IMG/VR virus record: IMGVR_UViG_3300045256_000753
Span: 37,638 to 101,637 of that record
DNA length: 64,000 nt
Origin: a virus
Strand: one strand, 5' to 3'
This document shows positions 42,670 through 54,988 of this stretch, one piece after another. The notes under the pieces are model-generated. The model saw nothing but the letters and a program-made list of their open reading frames with translations, was not told where the DNA came from and made no database searches. Each line of letters begins with the position of its first letter. Positions within the stretch are counted from its first letter, which is position 1. The position numbers and the translations under genes were made by a program.

Positions 42670-45600
42670 TCAGATGTTCGCGCGGAGATTGAACGTCAGG
42701 ACCAGGTACTCCAACGGGAAGATCGGAGCGTAGAAGGCCTGGAAGTTCAGGATGGTCGGGTCGTTCGGGTCGATCTGCGCGCTGAGGCCGGTGAAGGCTG
42801 CGACGATCTCGGCCTGAACGAGGCTCTTGAAGAGACCCGTCATCGTCACGACGACCTCGGTCGTACGCGACTGGAGGAACTTGGTTCCGACGAACGAGTC
42901 GAGGATCGTACGCGACTGCTGTTGCACGAAGTCGCTGATCTGCGTCACCGTGGGCAGGCGCGTGAGGATCGACGCCATGTTGGTCGTCAAGCCCTGGCGG
43001 ATACGGAGGAACCCGTTGCCGAGGTCTTCGAGGAGGGTGATGCCAGCGACCGCCGTCTGCGTGGCCTCGACCGGATCGAGGATGCGCGGGATGCTGGTGA
43101 AGCCCTGGAGACGGCGCCGCGTGTACGGCGTCGCCACGTCCACCGAGGGAGCGACCACGGCGCCAGCAACTGCCGCACCGAAGAACGAGCCGTCGATGAT
43201 CGACTGGAACGACTGCCCGGTCTCGTCCGTGAGGGTCACGACCGAGCTGTCCGGGTAGAAGGCCACGATACGCGAGGACACGAGGGACTTCGCGATCGTC
43301 TGCGCGCTGGTCGGCGACGTTCCGCTTGCGAACCCGATGAAGCCCATGCGCTCCGCCTGGTTGCGGATGTTCGACTGGACTTCGCAGTGGTTCGTGAGGA
43401 ACGAGTAGACCGCCGTGCTCGTCGCCAACGGGACCAGGATGTCCGGCTTCACGTTGCCCGGAAGCGGCGTGGCCAGGCCTGCGATGGCGTTGATGAACGA
43501 CTGGTCGCTCGCCTGGTTCGTGTTCGGAACCTTTAGCACCTGCGTGATGCCGATGAGGACGGCGCCGTTCAGGATGGCGAGGTAGGCCGCGAGGCTGACG
43601 CGGTTTTCCGGGCTCGTCGCACCGAAGTTGGCTTCGATGGTCTTGAGGGTCTGGAAGATGCGCGTCGAGAAGTCCTGCTTCTTGTAGCGGTACGAGATGA
43701 AGTAGAAGTCACCGACCGCAGGCTCCAAACCGCCCGGGTTGAACGTCTGGATGACGCCCGTGTCGTTGACTGCCACGTTGACCGTGTTCGACACGATCAT
43801 CTCGATGCCCGGGATGGAGAGGCGGGGCACGCTCGGGTCCACGTGGAACGTGGGGCTGACGAGCAACGTGAAGTTGCCTGCCGGCGTGTAGCCGCCCGTC
43901 GAAGCCGGAAGGATGGTGAACCGGAGGCCGGTCACCGCGTCCGTGTACGTCTGGCCCGGGACACCGGTACCAGCCGAACCGTTCGGCGACGACGACGAGA
44001 CCGTGTACTGGTCGTGTGCGTCTTCACCGACATCCCCATCAACGCCCGGCGTGAGGCCGATGCCCGTCGAGGTGTTGAACGCCGAGTTCGCCGAAGCGGC
44101 GAAGCCGATGCTCGACCCCGATGCGCCCGTCGTGAGCGACTCGATGGTGATGTAGTTCTTGCTGTTGAGGGCATCGACGTAGGCCACGGCGCCGGCAGCG
44201 AAGCCGCCCGTCGCCATGAGTTCGTCCACGACTTCTTGAGCAGTGACGAGCGCCTGGCTCGCGAACTGGTTCTGGGTGAACCCGAGGACCGCGTTTGCCG
44301 ATCCGTTCTGGATGAGGATCGACGAGTTCGCGTCGTTGGTCAGGCTGGTGAGGCGCACGTGGTTGGCGTTGCCGAGCGTGCCCGACGACGGAACGCCGCC
44401 GAGGCCCGAAACTGCGCCGATGGCCGTCACGACCGATGCCGCCGAAACCGCCGCGCCTGCCGGGAGCGTCACCGAGTAGTCGGTGCCGTTCACGCGAAGG
44501 AGCAACTTGTCGTTGAGGCCCGCCGTGATGTTGTACGGACCCGCAAGGCCGCTGAGCAGCGTTGCCGGCTTGTTGATCGCGCCGGGGGTGCCCGCCGCCG
44601 CCTGGAAGGTCTTGAAGCCGAGCGTGTGCTCGACCGTGCCCTGGAGGATCTTCACCGTCGAGACTGCATCGAAGCCGCCCGGGAGTGCCGCCGGCGTCGA
44701 GTAGCTCTTGATGATGAAGATGATGTCGCCCGTGCCCGGTCCGCCGATTTGGACCGACGAGCAGAGGTTGTTCGGGGCCGTTCCGACGAACGCGGCGTTC
44801 GCATCGATCCCGGTGTTGATCTCGCTGACGATCTGAGCCGGCGTGCGGTTACCCGCCGTCAGGTTGATCGTCGCGACGGTCACACCGTCGATCTGGACGT
44901 TGAACGCGTTGTTCGGCGAAGCCGGGATCGTGATCTTGCCGGTGTCGGGTCCCGTTTGAATCGGGGTGACGTGACCGCCGACGAGGAAGCCCTTCGCCTG
45001 GTTGGACAGCGTGGTCGTTTGCGAGCCGCCGTTGACGACGGTGACCCACGTTGCCGAGTACGGAGCGAAGAAGCTGTAGGGCTCCGCATTGCGGTTCGTG
45101 AATGCCGCGTTTTCCGGTGCGCTCTGGCTGAACGTGATCGTGACGATCTCGGCAACCGGCGTTCCGTTGCCCGTGTGGAACGCATCCGGGATGTTCTCCA
45201 CGCCGCGCGGCCACTGGACCGTCTGGGCGAAGCCGGACTTGGTTCCGAAGCGGACCTCGAAGAGGTTCGCGTTGCGGAGCGACGAGAAGACCGTGTACTG
45301 GCCCGAGCCGATCGGTCCAGGGACCGTGCAGGTCAGGATGTACGTGTCATCGACGATGTTGTTGTACCAGAAGGTCGCGAACACCGTGTAGTCCGGGGGA
45401 ACCGGACGCTGGAGGGTGATGACGCGATTCGGACCATCGACGGCGATCACGGGGATCGCGGCGCGGCCGAGAGCGTCACGGAGGTTGCGGCCCGCGTAAA
45501 CCGTCACGAGGTCCGGACGGTTCGACACGAGGTCCATGCGACCGTTCGTGACCGAGTTGTAGAGCGGCAAGCCCAGGGGCGTGTCGCGTCCGTTTCCGGT

Positions 45601-46971
45601 CGTCGGAATCTCGGGCAGGAGGAACTGCGTCGCCGAGACCGTGGCCGGGATCGTCGTGGTGTCCGTCACGGGCGTGCATGCCGCGAGGAACATCTTGTCA
45701 TCGACGAGCGTCGTGCCGATCTGGCCGCCGAGACCCGAAACGCCATCGAACGGCGCGGCACCGGGGCTGGTCTTCGTCGCTTGCGTGACGACACCGGTAC
45801 CCCAGTTGACGAGCGAGACATCCGGAGTCGGATTCGCGATCGTGAAGTCCGCACCCTGGATGTAGTCGTTGCGCTGCGGCGAGATGCCGGCGCGAATGAC
45901 CTGCGTGACGTTCGAGTTCGGGAGGTAGTCGAACGTTTGCTGCCAGGTGTTGGCGAAGTATTGGATGCTGACCGTGCTGCCCGGAGCCGGCGCGAACGGC
46001 AGCGTGACGACGCCGTTCTTGCCATCGACCGCCGAAGCAACGACCTGCACGTTGTTGACCTTCACGACGACCTTGGTCGGGTCCGTGGTCGTGATGCCGC
46101 CGCCGCTGCCATCCACGATCGGGATGTTGAAGAGACGGAACTGGGCGTTGCGCGACGTCTGCGCACCGGACGAGAAGCCGAGCGGGCCGTTCGCCGTGCC
46201 GGAGCCGATCACGATCGATTGCGTGGCGGTGAGCAGGATGTGGTTGAGTCCCGCGTTGTCCACGAAGACGGTCGCGAGGAGGTTCGGGATCGCCGCCGCC
46301 ATGATGGCGGAAACGACGCCGGCCGCCGTGAGCGAGCCCGGGGGCAGGGTGACCGTCGCCTGGACGCCGTTGACCGTCAGAACGAAGTTGTCGTTCGATC
46401 CGGCCGTGATGAGGAAGGGCTCGAAGCCCGGGCTCGTGAGGGTCGCGTTCGTCGAAGTGACCTGGCCCGAAACGTCGTCCGTGAAGCTCGTGTCCCCACG
46501 GTGGAAGTGGTAGGTCGCGCGAACCGTGTCGGTCGGCTGCGTCGGGATCTGGAGTCCGACGAGACCCTTGGCGCCTTGCACCGAGGCAACGGCCACCGGG
46601 GTCCCGTTGACGGTCACCGTCACCGAGCGGGTGTCGTTCGTCGTGCGGCCGATTCCCTGGCCGTCCACGATCGGGAAGTTCTTGACGCGGAACTGCGTGA
46701 GCTGACCGTTCTGCGCACCGAGAACGAGGTTGTTGGGGTTGGTCGCATCGACCACCCAAGAGAGGCTGACGTCCTCGTTGACGATCAACTCGTCCACCGT
46801 GGCCGAGCTGCCACGAACGAGTTCGATGTCGTCTTGCTCCAGCTCCTCTTGGCCGACGCCAATGATGACCGGGATGCGAAGACCAGCCACCAAGTTGGAG
46901 ACGTTGGCCTCCGTCAAGGTGCGGGTGTAAACGCCGGGCGGAACGTACGTGACAAACGGGCCGAGAGCCAT
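42670..46971 (-). CDS. Tail sheath protein, exceptionally large
   Basis: 1433 aa; sheath proteins are usually 400-700 aa. The N-terminus has the sheath motif (PFVTYVPPGVYTRTLTEAN) and the last 350 residues have the conserved sheath core: FQTLKTIEANFGAT, KPDILVPLATSTAVY, YTRRRLQGFTSIPRILDP, GITLLEDLGNGFLRIRQG and a C-terminal LVLTFNLRANI strand. The ~900 residues between are beta modules. A segment with QFR, IVDG, VNGTPV and TYHF (93-166) is duplicated at about 275-350. Another module, with ITAG-x-ND, VNG, TLPPG and LGF, occurs at about 184-270 and 800-905, more weakly near 677-770, and also in the gp25-like protein. ATG 46971 has a GAGGAG site. The extra modules probably decorate the outside of the tail. 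Confidence 0.85.
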   Translation of the reverse strand: MALGPFVTYVPPGVYTRTLTEANVSNLVAGLRIPVIIGVGQEELEQDDIELVRGSSATVDELIVNEDVSLSWVVDATNPNNLVLGAQNGQLTQFRVKNFPIVDGQGIGRTTNDTRSVTVTVNGTPVAVASVQGAKGLVGLQIPTQPTDTVRATYHFHRGDTSFTDDVSGQVTSTNATLTSPGFEPFLITAGSNDNFVLTVNGVQATVTLPPGSLTAAGVVSAIMAAAIPNLLATVFVDNAGLNHILLTATQSIVIGSGTANGPLGFSSGAQTSRNAQFRLFNIPIVDGSGGGITTTDPTKVVVKVNNVQVVASAVDGKNGVVTLPFAPAPGSTVSIQYFANTWQQTFDYLPNSNVTQVIRAGISPQRNDYIQGADFTIANPTPDVSLVNWGTGVVTQATKTSPGAAPFDGVSGLGGQIGTTLVDDKMFLAACTPVTDTTTIPATVSATQFLLPEIPTTGNGRDTPLGLPLYNSVTNGRMDLVSNRPDLVTVYAGRNLRDALGRAAIPVIAVDGPNRVITLQRPVPPDYTVFATFWYNNIVDDTYILTCTVPGPIGSGQYTVFSSLRNANLFEVRFGTKSGFAQTVQWPRGVENIPDAFHTGNGTPVAEIVTITFSQSAPENAAFTNRNAEPYSFFAPYSATWVTVVNGGSQTTTLSNQAKGFLVGGHVTPIQTGPDTGKITIPASPNNAFNVQIDGVTVATINLTAGNRTPAQIVSEINTGIDANAAFVGTAPNNLCSSVQIGGPGTGDIIFIIKSYSTPAALPGGFDAVSTVKILQGTVEHTLGFKTFQAAAGTPGAINKPATLLSGLAGPYNITAGLNDKLLLRVNGTDYSVTLPAGAAVSAASVVTAIGAVSGLGGVPSSGTLGNANHVRLTSLTNDANSSILIQNGSANAVLGFTQNQFASQALVTAQEVVDELMATGGFAAGAVAYVDALNSKNYITIESLTTGASGSSIGFAASANSAFNTSTGIGLTPGVDGDVGEDAHDQYTVSSSSPNGSAGTGVPGQTYTDAVTGLRFTILPASTGGYTPAGNFTLLVSPTFHVDPSVPRLSIPGIEMIVSNTVNVAVNDTGVIQTFNPGGLEPAVGDFYFISYRYKKQDFSTRIFQTLKTIEANFGATSPENRVSLAAYLAILNGAVLIGITQVLKVPNTNQASDQSFINAIAGLATPLPGNVKPDILVPLATSTAVYSFLTNHCEVQSNIRNQAERMGFIGFASGTSPTSAQTIAKSLVSSRIVAFYPDSSVVTLTDETGQSFQSIIDGSFFGAAVAGAVVAPSVDVATPYTRRRLQGFTSIPRILDPVEATQTAVAGITLLEDLGNGFLRIRQGLTTNMASILTRLPTVTQISDFVQQQSRTILDSFVGTKFLQSRTTEVVVTMTGLFKSLVQAEIVAAFTGLSAQIDPNDPTILNFQAFYAPIFPLEYLVLTFNLRANI

Positions 46972-47155: not shown

Positions 47156-47590
47156 CTATTTCGGGGCCTCCCGGCTCGAACGGATGGCCGTGAGGGCTTC
47201 CTTCGCCAGACGGCGCCGGGCGCTCAGGCCAACGTCGCTCATCGGCTCGTAGTCGATGTAGTCCGTTCCCGTATGACGGATGAGAGCGTGGGTGCCTCCC
47301 TGTTTTCGCGCCTCATCCTTCACCTTGTCCCTCTCGCGAATGAGGGCCCAGCGCTCGTCGGCGCTCCTCCCAACGGCCCGATCGGCATCCGGGTAGTCGT
47401 GCCCGTGTACGCCTGAGTTAGCCGGAGCGGTCCCCCCGGGGGCGAAGTTGAACGCGAACGCCGTTCCATCAAGGAGGCGCGGCGCCAAATCCTTGCACGA
47501 CGGGCATTCGTGCGTGGGGTGATCCCCCATCTTGAGGGATCGTTCGAAGCGAATGTTGCAGGTCTGGCACTCAAATGCGTATTTCGGCAC
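47156..47590 (-). CDS. FmdB-type zinc ribbon protein (first)
   Basis: 144 aa from a GTG start (PKYAFECQTCNIRFER) with GGAGA upstream. Cys 8, 11, 29 and 32 (FECQTC and ECPSC) match the FmdB/CxxC regulatory zinc ribbon, with the usual basic-aromatic start. The C-terminal 80 residues are charged and helical (RWALIRERDKVKDEARKQ). The family is often annotated as putative regulatory protein, but in phage clusters its role is unknown. A second member lies at 61.7-62.2 kb. It is the last gene before the sheath leader. Confidence 0.65.
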   Translation of the reverse strand: MPKYAFECQTCNIRFERSLKMGDHPTHECPSCKDLAPRLLDGTAFAFNFAPGGTAPANSGVHGHDYPDADRAVGRSADERWALIRERDKVKDEARKQGGTHALIRHTGTDYIDYEPMSDVGLSARRRLAKEALTAIRSSREAPK

Positions 47591-47605: not shown

Positions 47606-48766
47606 TCATCCAATGCGTTCGTAGGAATTGTTTCGCCCGGTGATGATGGGCACCGTGGCGAAGAACAGGGGGTCTGCTTCTTGGGTAAGGGGCGGGCTGT
47701 CCACACCGCTTGGACCGGTGACCCGGCTGATGGTGAGCAAGAGCGGGAGATGGATCTCCCAATCCGCCTGAATCTCGATCGACATTCCGGCTTGGTAGTA
47801 GAAGAGTTCCGCCTGCTCGTCGTAGGCTTCCTCGGTCTCGCCACCCATCGAAATGTTCGTGATCTCAATGCCTTCGAAAGAGAGGAGGGGCCGCTTCTCG
47901 CCCCAGAGGTACATGATCACGAGGTCCGCAATCTCCTCCATTTGAATGGGGTCGCGGGCGATCACGTCGAACTCAAACGTCGCATCGAAGCGTCCGCCGT
48001 AGGCGTTGGCAGCTTCCACGCGATCCGGGTAGACCACAACCGCCACCTTGTCCCCTACTTTGGCGCGCTTGCCGAAAGCGAGGACAACGCCGGGAAGGGT
48101 CTTGAAGTCCGACGTGTTCCAGGTGAAGGGGATGGGGCCGACCGATGGCGCCGCGAAGCGATAGTCCGCACTGACGAGGGTCTCCGGCGCGAAGCGAGTG
48201 AGGAATAGAATCGCTCCGTTCGAGTAATCGACTTGGTAGTCACGACCCTCAACGAGCATGTAGTGGTGATTTTGCCAGAGACGTAGCGTCCCTTTGACCG
48301 GCACGTTTTCGAGCTGCCCCTCCTGCTCGATTCCCGTGACGAAGTGAAGGACGGGTTCGTCGGTGACCGTGAGTAGAGGATCGATGGCGTACGAGCCCTG
48401 CTCGTCAGCCGTTGTCGGAACGGTGAGGATCTCGATGTAGTAGACGCCAGGAGGCGTCGGCATCTTGTCCCCATGGTCGCGGACGCACGTGAGATCTTCG
48501 CGCACCCATTCGAGCGGGTACGCGGGCTGACCCACGTAGGCAAGCATCACGTGGCTTTGAACGGTCCCCACGAAGTTGTCGGCGGAGAGCGCCACCTTGT
48601 TCGCGGACGAGTTCTTGACGACGATGCCGAACTGCGGGCGTTCGTTGAACGAGAACTTGTTCTCGATGAAGGGGACGATCTTTTCGTAAAGGGGATGCCT
48701 CCCGAAGCTGTCTTTCAGCTCCAGGATGAGCCTTCGCTTTAGTGCACCGACGAGGTTGTAATACAC
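47606..48766 (-). CDS. Neck or tail-completion protein candidate
   Basis: 386 aa from a GTG start (MYYNLVGALKRRLILELKD) directly after the actin-like gene's stop. N-terminal helix followed by beta domains (QSHVMLAYVGQPAYPLEWVR, GVYYIEILTVPTTADEQGSY), then a section AGMSIEIQADWEIHLPLLLT. The middle contains ARDPIQMEEIADLVIMYLWG, which has the helix pattern of tail terminator or neck proteins that sit on top of the tube. Position before the sheath gene and after HK97-gp10-like and connector genes supports a neck role. The shared DNA with no other family is noted; assignment is contextual. Confidence 0.5.
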   Translation of the reverse strand: MYYNLVGALKRRLILELKDSFGRHPLYEKIVPFIENKFSFNERPQFGIVVKNSSANKVALSADNFVGTVQSHVMLAYVGQPAYPLEWVREDLTCVRDHGDKMPTPPGVYYIEILTVPTTADEQGSYAIDPLLTVTDEPVLHFVTGIEQEGQLENVPVKGTLRLWQNHHYMLVEGRDYQVDYSNGAILFLTRFAPETLVSADYRFAAPSVGPIPFTWNTSDFKTLPGVVLAFGKRAKVGDKVAVVVYPDRVEAANAYGGRFDATFEFDVIARDPIQMEEIADLVIMYLWGEKRPLLSFEGIEITNISMGGETEEAYDEQAELFYYQAGMSIEIQADWEIHLPLLLTISRVTGPSGVDSPPLTQEADPLFFATVPIITGRNNSYERIG

Positions 48767-48769
48767 GGG

Positions 48770-49789
48770 TTACCCCGCGTGCTCTTCGATGGCCAAAACG
48801 AGAAGGCCCTCGGCAACGGCCGTCATGGGGTCCTTCGCGCTTCGGACCTCGCTGATTTGGATGGGGAAGCCCTTCTTCTTCACCGCCTCGAACTCCTCCT
48901 TGAACAGGTCGAGGAATCCGCCCGCCTTGGTGGTTCCGCCCGAGACGACGAACGGGATCGGGTTCGGCAGATCGAGCGACGTTTGGACCTTGCGGAACTG
49001 GATCGCGATGTTGTCGAGGCAGTATTTGACGAGCGACCGGATGTAGAGCGCGATGGCTTCTTCGTCGCGGTTCTTGGGGGCCATCAGATCGACGCCCTTT
49101 TCCTTGATCGCGCACATGCGGGCCGTCGTCGAGCCCATGGCCTTCGCCGCGTGCGTGTCGATCCAGTCACCCCCACGGGCGACGGAGAATTCGAGGCCGC
49201 ATACCGTCTGATAAGCGAGCGCGACGTTGCACATGCCGGAGCCGAAGCTCACCGACAGGCCCGAGAAGTTCTCTTCCGCGCACTGGCTGTAGATGATGGC
49301 CATCGCCTCGTTCATCGGATGCGGCTCGTACCCGTGCTCCGAGATGATTTTGCGGAAGACCTCGGTGTGGTAGATGACGTCCTGGTCCGGGTCATCGATC
49401 GGTGCGGCCGGAACGCTGTAGAAGCAGTGCTCCCCCTCTTTGACGGGCTTGCCGAGCACGTGCTTGACGAGGAGGCTGAGAATCTGCTGGGCCTCGATCT
49501 CGCCGGCGGCGATGACACCGCGCGAGAGCGGCCGACGCAGCTCCTTCTTGAAGAGGTTCACCATGTTGAGCGCCGAATCGCCGATGACGATCAAACGGTC
49601 GCCCTTCTCGACGTAATCGACCTTCGAGAGGCGAAGCGTCTTCTTCGCCTCCACATCGAGATCGATGAACGCATCGCGGACACGGCTGCTCACAACCTTG
49701 TCCTTCTCGTTCATGCGTGCGCTCACGATGTTCATCGTGCCCACGTCGAGTCCAACGGCTGGTTTGAATGTGATTTGATTCGCGCTCAT
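48770..49789 (-). CDS. Actin-like ATPase (MreB/ParM type)
   Basis: 339 aa. Actin/Hsp70-fold motifs are in order: phosphate-1 loop GLDVGTMNIVSAR (residues 13-25), connect-1-like NEAMAIIYS (about 160), phosphate-2 loop VSFGSGMCNVALAY (about 179), an MreB-like ARGGDWIDTHAAKAMGS stretch, and an adenosine-like motif PFVVSGGTTKAGGFLDLF (about 275). A GVIAAGEIEAQQIL segment recalls the MreB GVIAD-type region. Such proteins bind ATP and form filaments that segregate plasmids or shape cells; phage actin homologues are known, but one inside a tail gene cluster is unusual. Filament formation is not shown. It lies between a Dps-like gene and a neck-type gene. ATG 49789. Confidence 0.8.
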   Translation of the reverse strand: MSANQITFKPAVGLDVGTMNIVSARMNEKDKVVSSRVRDAFIDLDVEAKKTLRLSKVDYVEKGDRLIVIGDSALNMVNLFKKELRRPLSRGVIAAGEIEAQQILSLLVKHVLGKPVKEGEHCFYSVPAAPIDDPDQDVIYHTEVFRKIISEHGYEPHPMNEAMAIIYSQCAEENFSGLSVSFGSGMCNVALAYQTVCGLEFSVARGGDWIDTHAAKAMGSTTARMCAIKEKGVDLMAPKNRDEEAIALYIRSLVKYCLDNIAIQFRKVQTSLDLPNPIPFVVSGGTTKAGGFLDLFKEEFEAVKKKGFPIQISEVRSAKDPMTAVAEGLLVLAIEEHAG

Positions 49790-49809: not shown

Positions 49810-49824
49810 GGGGTCTGAGACCCC
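49810..49824 (-). other. Perfect hairpin between the Dps-like and actin-like genes
   Basis: GGGGTCTGAGACCCC forms a perfect 6-bp stem with a 3-base loop, plus tight spacing to the actin-like gene's start. There is no T tract, so termination is doubtful; an mRNA processing or protective hairpin is possible. Confidence 0.4.
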
Positions 49825-49828
49825 TTGT

Positions 49829-50620
49829 TCATTTGCGACGGTCGTAGCCGACTTTCGTCTGTGCTCTTTGGCGGAGCAGATAGACGAATTCCTCATGCTT
49901 GTCGGCGACGTCCTGAAGTAGGTTGTCGGTCCCGTTGCTCAGCATCGCTGTCGCTTCGAGCGACTTGTATGCGAGCCCCAAGATGGACAGCAGGTAAAGC
50001 TCCGTGAGGAAGCTGGTGACCGCGTACTGGTCCGGTCCGGGATCGGTCTGGATGTCCCCGCTGAAAAACTTGACGAGGGCTCCGACCTGCGAAGCTTGAA
50101 CGACCGGGTGCACCAGCAGACGGTGACCGGCGCCCACTGCACGCTCGGCGACGCGATCGATCAGATCCAGCGAATCGTTGTACAGGCGCTCGTAGAGCAG
50201 GTGGTCGCCGTAGAACGTATCGCCTCTTGTCTGCCAGTGGTGTGACTGGTGGACCATTGCCGCTGCGCGCATGCTCGCAACAAGGACACCGAGTTCTGCC
50301 ATCGCGATGTTCTGGTAGTCCCCAAGAAGGGTGAGGAACATCTGTTCGATCGGAGAGGCATTTGCGACCTTTTCGACGAGGGACTTGATTTCGGCTTTCG
50401 AAGAGCGGGCGAGTCGAACCTTCGGCTCGGGAAGGTACGGCGGACCCATGCTCATGTGGTCGTACGTCGTCGGATCGTGCCAGAGCGCGTAGATCGACTC
50501 GGCATGCAAGCCCGAATAGGGGTCCACGGTGTTGGAGGGGGCCTCTTCTTGGGCCTCTTCGTCCGGATCGGCCTCTTCTTCGGCCCCTTCCAGCTCCAAT
50601 TCGTCGAGTTCTTCGGGCAT
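49829..50620 (-). CDS. Dps-like ferritin-superfamily protein
   Basis: 263 aa. Core helices lie at about residues 90-250. The motif AAAMVHQSHHWQTRG is the Dps H-x-x-H-W signature, followed by FYGDHLLYERLY and LIDRVAER. His128, His140, Asp155 and Glu159 have the same spacing (12, 15 and 4) as the ferroxidase ligands His51, His63, Asp78 and Glu82 of E. coli Dps, and Glu144 sits where Dps has Asp67. Dps proteins store iron and bind DNA against oxidative damage. An acidic N-terminal 35 residues (DELELEGAEEEADPDEE) is extra. AGGGAA precedes ATG 50620. Cage assembly and iron binding are inferred. Confidence 0.75.
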   Translation of the reverse strand: MPEELDELELEGAEEEADPDEEAQEEAPSNTVDPYSGLHAESIYALWHDPTTYDHMSMGPPYLPEPKVRLARSSKAEIKSLVEKVANASPIEQMFLTLLGDYQNIAMAELGVLVASMRAAAMVHQSHHWQTRGDTFYGDHLLYERLYNDSLDLIDRVAERAVGAGHRLLVHPVVQASQVGALVKFFSGDIQTDPGPDQYAVTSFLTELYLLSILGLAYKSLEATAMLSNGTDNLLQDVADKHEEFVYLLRQRAQTKVGYDRRK

Positions 50621-50652: not shown

Positions 50653-51264
50653 TTATTTGTCCCCACCCTTACGAAGCTTCCGAAGGCGCCCAGCCGCGTC
50701 GGAAAGGCCTGAATCGTCCGCCTCTTGCGCAACCACGTCGATTCGGGCCGAAGCGTCTTTCGGAGCGATCTCGGACGGGATGAACTGGGGTGCCGCGCCG
50801 TCCGCAATCTCGTCGGTAGGCCGCACCACGGCGCCCGGGACCCCGCCCTGTACGATGACGGGCACGCTTTTGACCTTCTCAATCGCGCTCAGAATCGAAT
50901 CGAGGCGGTCTTGCTGTGAGAGCGCCGTTTGCAGGGCACTTTGCAAACCGTCGCGATCCTTCCGAAGTGCCTCGTTCTCGGCTTCGAGTTGTTTGACCCG
51001 CTGGTCGAGAAACTGGACCCGCGCTTGGAGGACATCATCCTGAACGGCCGTGGGTGGGGTCGGGTAGCGCTGCGGAAGGGCCGTTCCGAAATGTCCGGGA
51101 ACGCGGACGATGAGTTTCTGCCCGATCGCACGCCAGAGATCCTTTGATCGTGCCGCTTGGAGACCGGGGATGGTCACGACCTGGCCGAAAGGAACATCCA
51201 TCTGAATGTCTTCGAGGAGGTGTGTACCGGCCACGAGTCCGTACACGAAGATGTCGTCACTCAT
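50653..51264 (-). CDS. Coiled-coil neck-region protein of unknown function
   Basis: 203 aa from ATG 51264 (MSDDIFVYGLVAGTHLLED); GGAGAG lies 6 bases upstream and the ATG overlaps the preceding TGA (ATGA), so the longer frame is rejected. An N-terminal beta domain (FGQVVTIPGLQAARSKD, QKLIVRVPGHFG) is followed by a clear coiled coil at about 75-125 (FLDQRVKQLEAENEALRKDR) and a Pro/Asp/Ala-rich tail with RLRKLRKGGDK at the end. Its place between an HK97-gp10-like protein and the Dps-like protein suggests a structural neck component. Confidence 0.5.
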   Translation of the reverse strand: MSDDIFVYGLVAGTHLLEDIQMDVPFGQVVTIPGLQAARSKDLWRAIGQKLIVRVPGHFGTALPQRYPTPPTAVQDDVLQARVQFLDQRVKQLEAENEALRKDRDGLQSALQTALSQQDRLDSILSAIEKVKSVPVIVQGGVPGAVVRPTDEIADGAAPQFIPSEIAPKDASARIDVVAQEADDSGLSDAAGRLRKLRKGGDK

Positions 51265-51782
51265 CGAACTCTCCGGGAAGCTGCTTTGACAAAGCGTTCG
51301 CGCACGTGGTCCTTCAACTCTTGAACGAGCTGCTTCTTGATGTACTCGCGCGTCTCCTTCTTCGCCTTCGTCAAGAAGTCGGAAGGATCTCGCCCGGGGT
51401 GCCACCACCGCCCGTTCATCATCGAGCGCGGCGAGGCTTTGCGGAAAATGAGCTTGCCGCTGTCAAGAACGATCGGGATCGGTCGCTTTGCTTTCGTCAG
51501 CCAGGTCATCTGCTGACGACGTTGCCCTTCAACAAGGGGCCGGAAGGCAGGATGGTTTGCCACGATCTGCAAGCTCGACGGCTTGATGCGGACCGTGAGC
51601 GATCGTTGAAGCGCGGCCTTGGCCTCGGGCGAAAAGGGCGTTTGAAGGAGCTGCGCTCGGAGGCGCCGGATCAAGTTCCGCTTCGTGCGGTTCAGGATCT
51701 GCTCTATCGAAAAGTGGCGAAGAATGCCGCGCGGCAAAAGCGGCCGTGCGTAAATGCGGTTGGAGACGTACCCCTGCGACAT
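51261..51782 (-). CDS. HK97 gp10-like minor tail/neck protein
   Basis: 173 aa. The segment GRWWHPGRDPSDFLTKAKKE is typical of HK97 gp10-like tail components (HPG, then P-x-x-F and a helix), followed by a long C-terminal helix EYIKKQLVQELKDHVRERF. The N-terminal part is basic with an RLRAQLLQTPFSPEAKAALQ helix. Such proteins join tail tube and head completion ring. The ATG overlaps the TGA of the upstream 451-aa gene (TGATG) and its own stop overlaps the next ATG (ATGA). Confidence 0.6.
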   Translation of the reverse strand: MSQGYVSNRIYARPLLPRGILRHFSIEQILNRTKRNLIRRLRAQLLQTPFSPEAKAALQRSLTVRIKPSSLQIVANHPAFRPLVEGQRRQQMTWLTKAKRPIPIVLDSGKLIFRKASPRSMMNGRWWHPGRDPSDFLTKAKKETREYIKKQLVQELKDHVRERFVKAASRRVR

Positions 51783-53137
51783 CAGTATTCGATGTTCTCC
51801 CAGACCTTGGTGCGGCCACGGAGCTGCCGTTCCTCAGGGATGCTGGGGTTGTTGGTGATCTCGGACGAGGCCTCTTGTTCGGGGCCGCTCGGTGCGAATT
51901 CCAACGCCACTGCGCGCGTCGGATTGGACATCGGCACGCGGTAACGGATGTCTTTCTCGTCGATGTGACCGATCGTGAAATGCTGCTGGAGGACGGCGCC
52001 GCGATTCTGCGGGAATCGCACGGCGCTGACCGAGTAGCGGTCGCCGTTGATCTTCACCAGGAAGTCGCGCATCGACATGATGGGCGCCGGTCCGGTCCAC
52101 ACTTCGTAGTTGTGCGTGGCGGTGCGTCCGATGTTCGATTGTGAGATGCGGCGCTCCGCATCATCCGGTGCGACGATCGCATCGTACGGCCCGTCGTACC
52201 CGCCAACGAAGCTCGTTCCGAAGCAAATGTGGCAGTCGCTGATGGGCTGACCGTGGTAGTCGTCCGGAATGCACGGACACGAAATGCCAGCATGCTTCTG
52301 GAGGAAGATCTTCACGCGCTCGCCGCCCTGTTCCAGAATCCAGCGGTTGCGGCGAATCGCTTCCTTCCAGATGTAGTCGAGCTTCTCGATCTCCATCGTG
52401 CTCGTCGCGGTGGCCTTCTCGATCGGCGTCTCGACGAAATCCTCCGATGAAGCCGTCGCGATGTTGCAGCCGATCGGAATCCCGACCGTCGTCACGCGGT
52501 AGAAGATTCGCTGCATCAGGTCGGTTCGAATGAGCTTGCGCGTGAAGCGATAGACGCACGTCACACGGCTTTGAGGCTGCGGAACCAGGGAAGGATCCCA
52601 CGCTTGCTTCGCAACGTCCACGTACACGAACGGGTCGATCTCGATCTCGCCCGTCGATCCGTAGACGTGAAGGACACGCGCGGGCCTGCCATCGATGAAG
52701 ACGTGGACGTCATCGGGGCTGTCCGCGTTGACCTTCTGCGAGCCCTCTTTGACGATGGGGAAGTTCTGCGTCTTGAAGACGTATCGAGGCGCGTTCGAGC
52801 CAGAGGCCGTGCAGTCGCCGAAGAGCACGAATTGCCCGGTGACGTCCTCCTCGACAAGCTCGTTGTCGGTTCGATCTCTCCAGAACCGGGCTCCGACGAG
52901 CGTGTCCGTCACGCGTTCGAAAGGGCCGAACTCGCTGTCGAAGCTCCGGTAGATGTTGACGCCCACCAATCGGAATCGACTGTTGATGGCAAGCTCGGTC
53001 GGATCGTCCCACGTGAGGTCGATCACTCCCGGCTCGAAGCCGCTCGTCATGAACAGGTTGAGCGGGGGCGCCGGCCAGGGCGCTTTCGTCAGCTCCAGCT
53101 CTGTCGTTTGACGGTCGCGATTAGATGCGTACGGCAT
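51782..53137 (-). CDS. Neck-region structural protein with fibronectin-like and cysteine-rich segments
   Basis: 451 aa. N-terminal fibronectin-like domain (FEPGVIDLTWDDPTELAINS, RLVGVNIYRSFDSEFGPFER). Middle beta domain ends near residue 230. At about 272-300 four cysteines and a His lie in CPCIPDDYHG and DCHICFGTSF, a likely zinc knuckle. The C-terminal section has a PAPIMSMRDFLVKINGDRYS strand and a GRAVLQQHFTIGHI-type segment resembling head-tail joining proteins, which often carry a cysteine-rich loop and contact capsid. GGAAAGG lies before ATG 53137 inside a hairpin. Family assignment tentative. Confidence 0.5.
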   Translation of the reverse strand: MPYASNRDRQTTELELTKAPWPAPPLNLFMTSGFEPGVIDLTWDDPTELAINSRFRLVGVNIYRSFDSEFGPFERVTDTLVGARFWRDRTDNELVEEDVTGQFVLFGDCTASGSNAPRYVFKTQNFPIVKEGSQKVNADSPDDVHVFIDGRPARVLHVYGSTGEIEIDPFVYVDVAKQAWDPSLVPQPQSRVTCVYRFTRKLIRTDLMQRIFYRVTTVGIPIGCNIATASSEDFVETPIEKATATSTMEIEKLDYIWKEAIRRNRWILEQGGERVKIFLQKHAGISCPCIPDDYHGQPISDCHICFGTSFVGGYDGPYDAIVAPDDAERRISQSNIGRTATHNYEVWTGPAPIMSMRDFLVKINGDRYSVSAVRFPQNRGAVLQQHFTIGHIDEKDIRYRVPMSNPTRAVALEFAPSGPEQEASSEITNNPSIPEERQLRGRTKVWENIEY

Positions 53138-54091: not shown

Positions 54092-54988
54092 TTAGAAGCC
54101 CACGAACTTCCGAGGGCTCAAAACGCCTCGGCCGACGAAGGGACCGAAGGCTGAGCGAATGCCCGTGCCGAACTTCGGCTGCTGGAGGCCGCGAACGAAG
54201 TTGACCGTCGCTTTGGCCTTTTCGAGCTGCTTGTCGAACTGTTCGCTCGACGCAGTGTAGGCCGCTTCGTATTTGGTGGCCTTGTCCAAATTGAGGGACA
54301 CGCCACCGATCGAGTATTCGAATTCGTCGGCGACCCAGTTGATCCGAAGCGCTTGTAGCGCGTGGAGCATCGCGCCCGTCAGAAGAACCGTCGTCCATTC
54401 ACGGCGCATCTGGATCATCTGCTCGACGTTCGAAAACGGCGTGCGCGGCGGGTACGCGATGATCATGTCGAGAGCGCGTTGGATGTATTCGTCGAGTTCT
54501 CCGTCTTCCCAGATGAAGCCGAAGACGCGATTGAATTGGCCGACCGTTTCTTCGTGCGCCGGCGGACGGAAGTGGTAGTTCCGGTCCGGGTTGTTGTCGC
54601 GGAGAAGGATTCGCAAGCGCCGGATCAGGTCCTGCACGATGTCGCTCGTGAAGTGCTGCGCCGTATCCACGGTCATCTTGTCCGAGACCGCGAACTCCTG
54701 AACGACTTCTTGCTTGGGACCCCCAACGACTTCCTGGAACGTCCAGCGAATGCGATACGTCCCCATGTTGGCATCGAGGGGGATGATGATGCTTGCGTAG
54801 TATTCGCCGATGCTAGGATTTGCCGGGATGCGGAACGGAGAGCCAACGACCGCTTCGACGCCGGTCGTGTAATCGTAGATCGCGTACGTGATCGAGGAGG
54901 CGTTCGTTGGCCTGTCCGCCGAGTTCGTCAGCAGAATGAACAGGTCGTTTCGACCGAGCTGTTGTCCGCGAAAGAATTGGACCGCCAT
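54092..54988 (-). CDS. Head-tail adaptor or neck protein candidate
   Basis: 298 aa. The first 115 residues form an Ig-like or delivery-type domain (GRNDLFILLTNSADRPTNAS, ITYAIYDYTTGVEAVVG, then IIPLDANMGTYRIRWTF). The second half is helical (SDIVQDLIRRLRILLRDNNP, LDEYIQRALDMIIAYPPRTP, GAMLHALQALRINWVADEFE) and resembles connector adaptors in outline. The N-terminal domain is related to the C-terminal domain of the 301-aa protein at 55.8-56.7 kb (GDIEILLEDRFGN, YTMLMAAP, VRWRYQRSYGEP). Probably a virion neck component. It ends in an AT-rich gap and is immediately followed by a new transcriptional segment. Confidence 0.55.
   Translation of the reverse strand: MAVQFFRGQQLGRNDLFILLTNSADRPTNASSITYAIYDYTTGVEAVVGSPFRIPANPSIGEYYASIIIPLDANMGTYRIRWTFQEVVGGPKQEVVQEFAVSDKMTVDTAQHFTSDIVQDLIRRLRILLRDNNPDRNYHFRPPAHEETVGQFNRVFGFIWEDGELDEYIQRALDMIIAYPPRTPFSNVEQMIQMRREWTTVLLTGAMLHALQALRINWVADEFEYSIGGVSLNLDKATKYEAAYTASSEQFDKQLEKAKATVNFVRGLQQPKFGTGIRSAFGPFVGRGVLSPRKFVGF

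Follow-up and report, generated by a model that had tools for sequence, protein, structure and literature searches.

A Dps-type mini-ferritin encoded in a neck/tail operon of huge phages

The locus described here raises the question of why a gene for a Dps-type ferritin should reside among the neck and tail genes of a phage, and whether its product serves the infected cell or the phage particle. It lies in a stretch of 64,000 nucleotides (referred to as the window), which is part of the 101,637-base IMG/VR record IMGVR_UViG_3300045256_000753. An initial annotation of this DNA had proposed a Dps-like ferritin with a full ferroxidase ligand set, encoded next to an actin-like gene in a tail cluster. 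The features concerned, in the order of transcription, are:

54092-54988, minus strand: conserved 298-aa protein with a weak head-tail connector match (phrog_17327, E 0.004; synteny)
51782-53137, minus strand: conserved 451-aa protein with a weak virion structural match (phrog_1004, E 2e-4; synteny)
51261-51782, minus strand: conserved 173-aa operon protein (synteny)
50653-51264, minus strand: coiled-coil protein directly upstream of Dps (start inferred; synteny)
49829-50620, minus strand: Dps-type mini-ferritin, 263 aa, single copy, ATG start (sequence, profile, AlphaFold model)
50429-50482, minus strand: W47-P64 motif confined to operon Dps (WHDPTTYDHMSMGPPYLP), a candidate docking segment (motif scans, operon linkage)
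50144-50239, minus strand: codons for residues 128-159 with the ferroxidase ligands H128, H140, D155 and E159 (invariant in 65 sequences; ungapped E. coli Dps alignment)
49810-49824, minus strand: perfect hairpin GGGGTCTcAGACCCC, located within the 39 bases that separate the Dps stop codon from the start of the actin gene (sequence)
48770-49789, minus strand: Volactin-family (Pfam) actin-like protein, 339 aa, directly downstream of Dps (PF25216, E 1.9e-74; synteny)
47606-48766, minus strand: 386-aa protein, possibly neck-, gateway- or terminator-like (best matches of the predicted model)
47156-47590, minus strand: zinc-ribbon protein, 144 aa (PF09723)
42670-46971, minus strand: tail sheath protein, 1433 aa (phrog_2839, E 1e-26)

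Relatedness to Dps proteins and the ferroxidase site

Sequence, profile searches and an AlphaFold model concur in identifying the product of 49829-50620 as a Dps-type ferritin, which, as judged from its sequence, represents a divergent branch of the Dps or mini-ferritin family. A phmmer search of the PDB lists Dps proteins as matches, with residues 120-168 pairing with residues 43-91 of E. coli Dps. Because these spans are equal in length, at an offset of 77, H128, H140, D155 and E159 correspond to H51, H63, D78 and E82, and the spacing of 12, 15 and 4 residues given for them by the initial annotation is correct. A profile built from 22 relatives retrieved 56 PDB sequences, nearly all of them Dps or Dps chimeras, with Nostoc Dps4 as the best match (E 6e-12), and PHROG 3636 matches the window protein at an E value of 1e-12. 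The Pfam Ferritin profile (PF00210) scores it at 17.7 bits, below the curated cut-off of 24.5, which is a database threshold and not a biological feature; 42 of the 65 relatives are matched by this profile at E <= 0.001.

In Dps proteins, the ferroxidase site is made up of two histidines from one subunit (H51 and H63 in E. coli) and an aspartate and a glutamate from its partner (D78 and E82), and D67 provides a fifth, additional acidic ligand in E. coli Dps. The four ligands are invariant across the 65 aligned relatives, down to about 31% identity, as are W129, Y137, D139, L142, G230 and E243. Of 88 family members, 87 contain the pattern Hx11Hx14Dx3E and one, a 76-aa fragment, does not; the absence of the pattern from 5,865 further ORFs, comprising 0.9 million residues, rules out a chance ligand spacing. 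The invariance of the ligands argues for metal chemistry being retained in the window protein, as far as can be judged from sequence. The position of E. coli D67 is occupied by E144, and only 48 of the 65 sequences have E or D there, the others carrying Q, S, M or A; the set of ligands was thus slightly overstated as full, with four invariant positions and a variable fifth one.

An AlphaFold2 model was calculated from the 65-row alignment (mean pLDDT 86, pTM 0.74); averaged over blocks of ten residues, its pLDDT values are 92-99 between approximately residues 81 and 250. Its predicted helices at residues 108-130, 136-164, 172-187 (BC), 196-223 and 229-254 follow the helix order of Dps, and additional ones are placed at 71-88 and 91-100. 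The top 50 listed Foldseek matches in the PDB consist of Dps proteins throughout (probability 1.00, target TM up to 0.84), and among viral entries a phage Dps matches best (rmsd 1.4). The comparison with Dps suggested at the outset therefore returned a four-helix ferritin-like bundle of Dps topology and, together with the phmmer and profile searches, confirms the assignment as a Dps-like ferritin; whether the ligands point outward was addressed through homology to the E. coli Dps site only. The Dps fold is also matched by three BFVD entries from uncultured phage annotated as prohead protease (A0A6J7XDU5, A0A6J7WPK9 and A0A6J7WIS1), hinting at other links of Dps domains to virion assembly as far as such model matches go.

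The window protein shares its fold, four-ligand spacing and BC-helix topology with bacterial Dps (PF00210; Nostoc Dps4, 5hjf; Thermosynechococcus DpsA, 2vxx; E. coli Dps, 1f30), but is about 20% identical to them and differs by its extra N-terminal helices, an operon-specific motif, the variable fifth ligand position of its family and the lack of a basic N-terminal tail. The phage proteins of the PHROG 3636 type (Salmonella phage 7-11, cyanophage S-SRM01) are likewise Dps-like, but have about 145 aa and no N-terminal motif, and the gene of phage 7-11 lies outside a neck/tail operon, adjoining thyX.

A defined position in the neck/tail operon

The setting in a tail cluster is borne out by the tail sheath gene 2.9 kb downstream of Dps, and the adjacent actin-like gene is confirmed by its match to Volactin, a family named after a haloarchaeal actin. 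The best matches of the model of the 386-aa protein are neck structures of phages 812, E217 and Pa193; since the TM scores are low, its identity as a neck or terminator protein is only suggestive. The coiled-coil ORF as listed begins at 51408, the internal ATG at 51264 probably being the start. A promoter and terminator scan returned nothing informative.

Two scans of viral contigs, from which 80 of 193 loci were kept, revealed the same gene order in about 60 metagenomic phage loci: the 451-aa protein, the 173-aa protein, the coiled-coil protein, Dps, the volactin-like actin, the 386-aa protein, the zinc-ribbon protein and the tail sheath. The number of independent cases is smaller, because the loci include near-duplicate contigs. 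The operon-bearing contigs reach 529 kb, and the identity of the operon Dps to the window protein falls to roughly 32-40%. The Dps and actin genes overlap or are a few bases apart in several operon loci, and in a few they are separated by additional ORFs (up to about 0.9 kb). Exactly one Dps was found per record in all 24 records tested. The Volactin-family gene is fixed in the operon of the window and the approximately 60 loci; in named phage records, Volactin matches were limited to LR745208 and LR756511 (595 kb). A pattern scan of limited sensitivity detected no relatives in 84,980 bacterial and archaeal genomes.

In the huge phage LR745208 (485 kb), the genes for the 451-aa, 173-aa, coiled-coil, actin, 386-aa, zinc-ribbon and sheath proteins follow one another as described above, except that Dps is missing from its place and the coiled-coil and actin genes overlap. 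Its sole Dps gene is located about 142 kb from the operon and lacks the N-terminal motif. Operons of this type can thus occur without Dps; where the gene is present, it fills a defined slot.

Dps proteins encoded outside the operon have about 145-215 aa, and the genes of those examined lie among genes for thymidylate synthase, thymidylate kinase, HNH endonuclease and DNA polymerase III. The proteins from such nucleotide- or DNA-metabolism modules are presumably soluble. Four loci with a non-operon Dps (L070, L074, L084 and L088) contain a Volactin-family gene of lower relatedness (about 35% identity) 2.7-6.2 kb downstream of Dps, and no volactin was detectable in several non-operon phage records carrying Dps. 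The tree has long branches and does not settle whether Dps entered or left the operon; parsimony needs four changes, and a single origin is possible.

An N-terminal segment linked to the operon

The operon Dps proteins carry the sequence WxDPxxYDxxxxGPPYLP ahead of the ferritin domain. All 50 strict occurrences of this motif are in Dps of the neck/tail operon, and none of the 24 Dps outside the operon contains it. Apart from L047, the 14 operon Dps that do not fit the strict motif are either fragments at contig ends or, for the most part, variants of it (e.g., GPPYMP). In an independent scan for the motif alone, all 35 loci had it inside a Dps ORF with actin downstream. A motif search of 13 genomes yielded one significant copy each in 12 of them and none in LR745208, with just two weak partial matches outside Dps (E 0.02 and 0.08). 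On the basis of these two scans, a general virion-targeting peptide was rejected.

The N-terminal extension is under purifying selection (dN/dS 0.08-0.24), as is the core. The acidic N-terminus reported for the window protein is real (net charge of -17 for residues 1-45, compared to +3 for the C-terminal tail), but the conserved part is the segment of residues 47-64. DNA binding is a property of some Dps proteins only; as the extension is acidic here and mostly mildly acidic in the relatives, the sequences do not suggest a protection of DNA through a basic Dps tail. A C-terminal peptide (KxAS..WK or YxYDRR) was considered as a feature common to Dps and virion proteins and rejected, being found on Dps and a few small genes just upstream and absent from the named operon neighbours. 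In three loci (L001:7514-8017, L028:7159-7989 and L041:4548-5027), a small protein encoded directly upstream of Dps has a ..TAS..WKA-type end resembling the C-terminal tails of many operon Dps.

Possible roles of the operon Dps

The reading we prefer, with a probability of roughly 0.5, is that of an active mini-ferritin made late in infection, whose N-terminal segment binds a neck/tail partner or the actin and which performs iron and peroxide chemistry on assembling or finished particles. It builds on the homology to Dps, the predicted fold, the conserved ligands, the fixed operon position and the linkage of motif and operon, from which we infer enzymatic activity, cage assembly, late expression and docking. 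Paired subunits would oxidize Fe(II) at H128, H140, D155 and E159, using up peroxide or oxygen, and the oxidized iron would be kept in a Dps-like cage. In a huge phage with a contractile tail, the protein would be produced along with those of neck and tail, and the conserved segment W47-P64 would bind a neck/tail assembly partner or the neighbouring actin-like protein, thereby locating the chemistry on the particles. Operon position and motif together point to a function connected with assembly of the neck and tail. The more specific version, in which working cages are docked via WxDP...GPPYLP either at the neck or next to the portal within the head, is tentative and perhaps unlikely as it stands.

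The operon position may, against a role on the particle, set the timing only. The protein would then be a soluble late-infection Dps that reduces the levels of free iron and peroxide in the infected cell, thereby protecting phage DNA and enzymes, and residing in the operon merely for late and strong expression, with a role of the N-terminal segment unrelated to the particle. This alternative is serious, if on balance unlikely: it agrees with the non-operon relatives next to genes of nucleotide and DNA metabolism, including thyX in phage 7-11, and with earlier work, in which phage Dps are already known and proposed as stress proteins with roles in oxidative stress (PMC8008677, PMC6669764), but leaves unexplained why the motif is restricted to operon Dps and why the insertion point is identical in about 60 loci. 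The fixed place between connector-like and terminator/sheath genes, along with the prohead-protease-annotated proteins matching the Dps fold, would also suit a structural part of the neck or tail that uses the fold as an oligomeric building block, with a metal site serving folding only or no longer catalytic. Such a part is improbable in view of the invariance of the four ligands and E243, and LR745208, which keeps the rest of the neck operon, indicates that an operon Dps is not needed for a neck. The initial interpretation as a virion component thus fits in so far as fold, ligands and fixed residence in the operon are compatible with a virion or assembly role, while the invariance of the four metal ligands makes a purely structural neck ring less likely. 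It appears highly improbable that Dps particles act as partners of the actin, binding or regulating volactin-like filaments which position or segregate phage DNA or particles: the actin gene follows directly downstream in about 60 loci, and a Volactin-family gene also occurs within several kilobases of some non-operon Dps, but the operon of LR745208 includes the actin, with the single Dps gene of this phage lying far away, and several phages with non-operon Dps lack a detectable volactin.

The nearest precedent is the predicted ferritin gp217 of the Vi01-like phage Sajous1, which is likewise encoded in a putative tail-linked operon, together with a tail-completion gene; it was detected in the phage proteome by mass spectrometry, and a role in iron was proposed, although tonB and feoB (iron uptake) mutant hosts gave no effect (PMC10892097). 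No homology to this ferritin was found when 47 kb of Vi01 were searched with the Dps profile. The DPS of the gut phages 'Gratiaviridae', proposed as an oxidative-stress helper for anaerobic hosts, is a phage-encoded Dps-like enzyme as well, for which the accessible parts of the report describe no structural operon (PMC8008677). Two overviews of jumbo phages do not mention Dps or ferritin, and no description of a neck/tail-operon Dps with an N-terminal segment was found in the literature searched, most subscription journals being outside its scope.

Phage Dps have so far been read as accessory stress genes, whereas the present case is a fixed single-copy Dps with an intact metal site in the neck/tail operon of a widespread huge-phage lineage, whose N-terminal segment tracks the operon, while a related huge phage lacks Dps at this place. 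If the cages are docked, each virion would carry its own iron- and peroxide-handling enzyme, which would protect the large genome or deliver iron chemistry at entry. Iron in phage particles, a matter of long discussion, thereby becomes testable on a defined protein with a short candidate docking segment.
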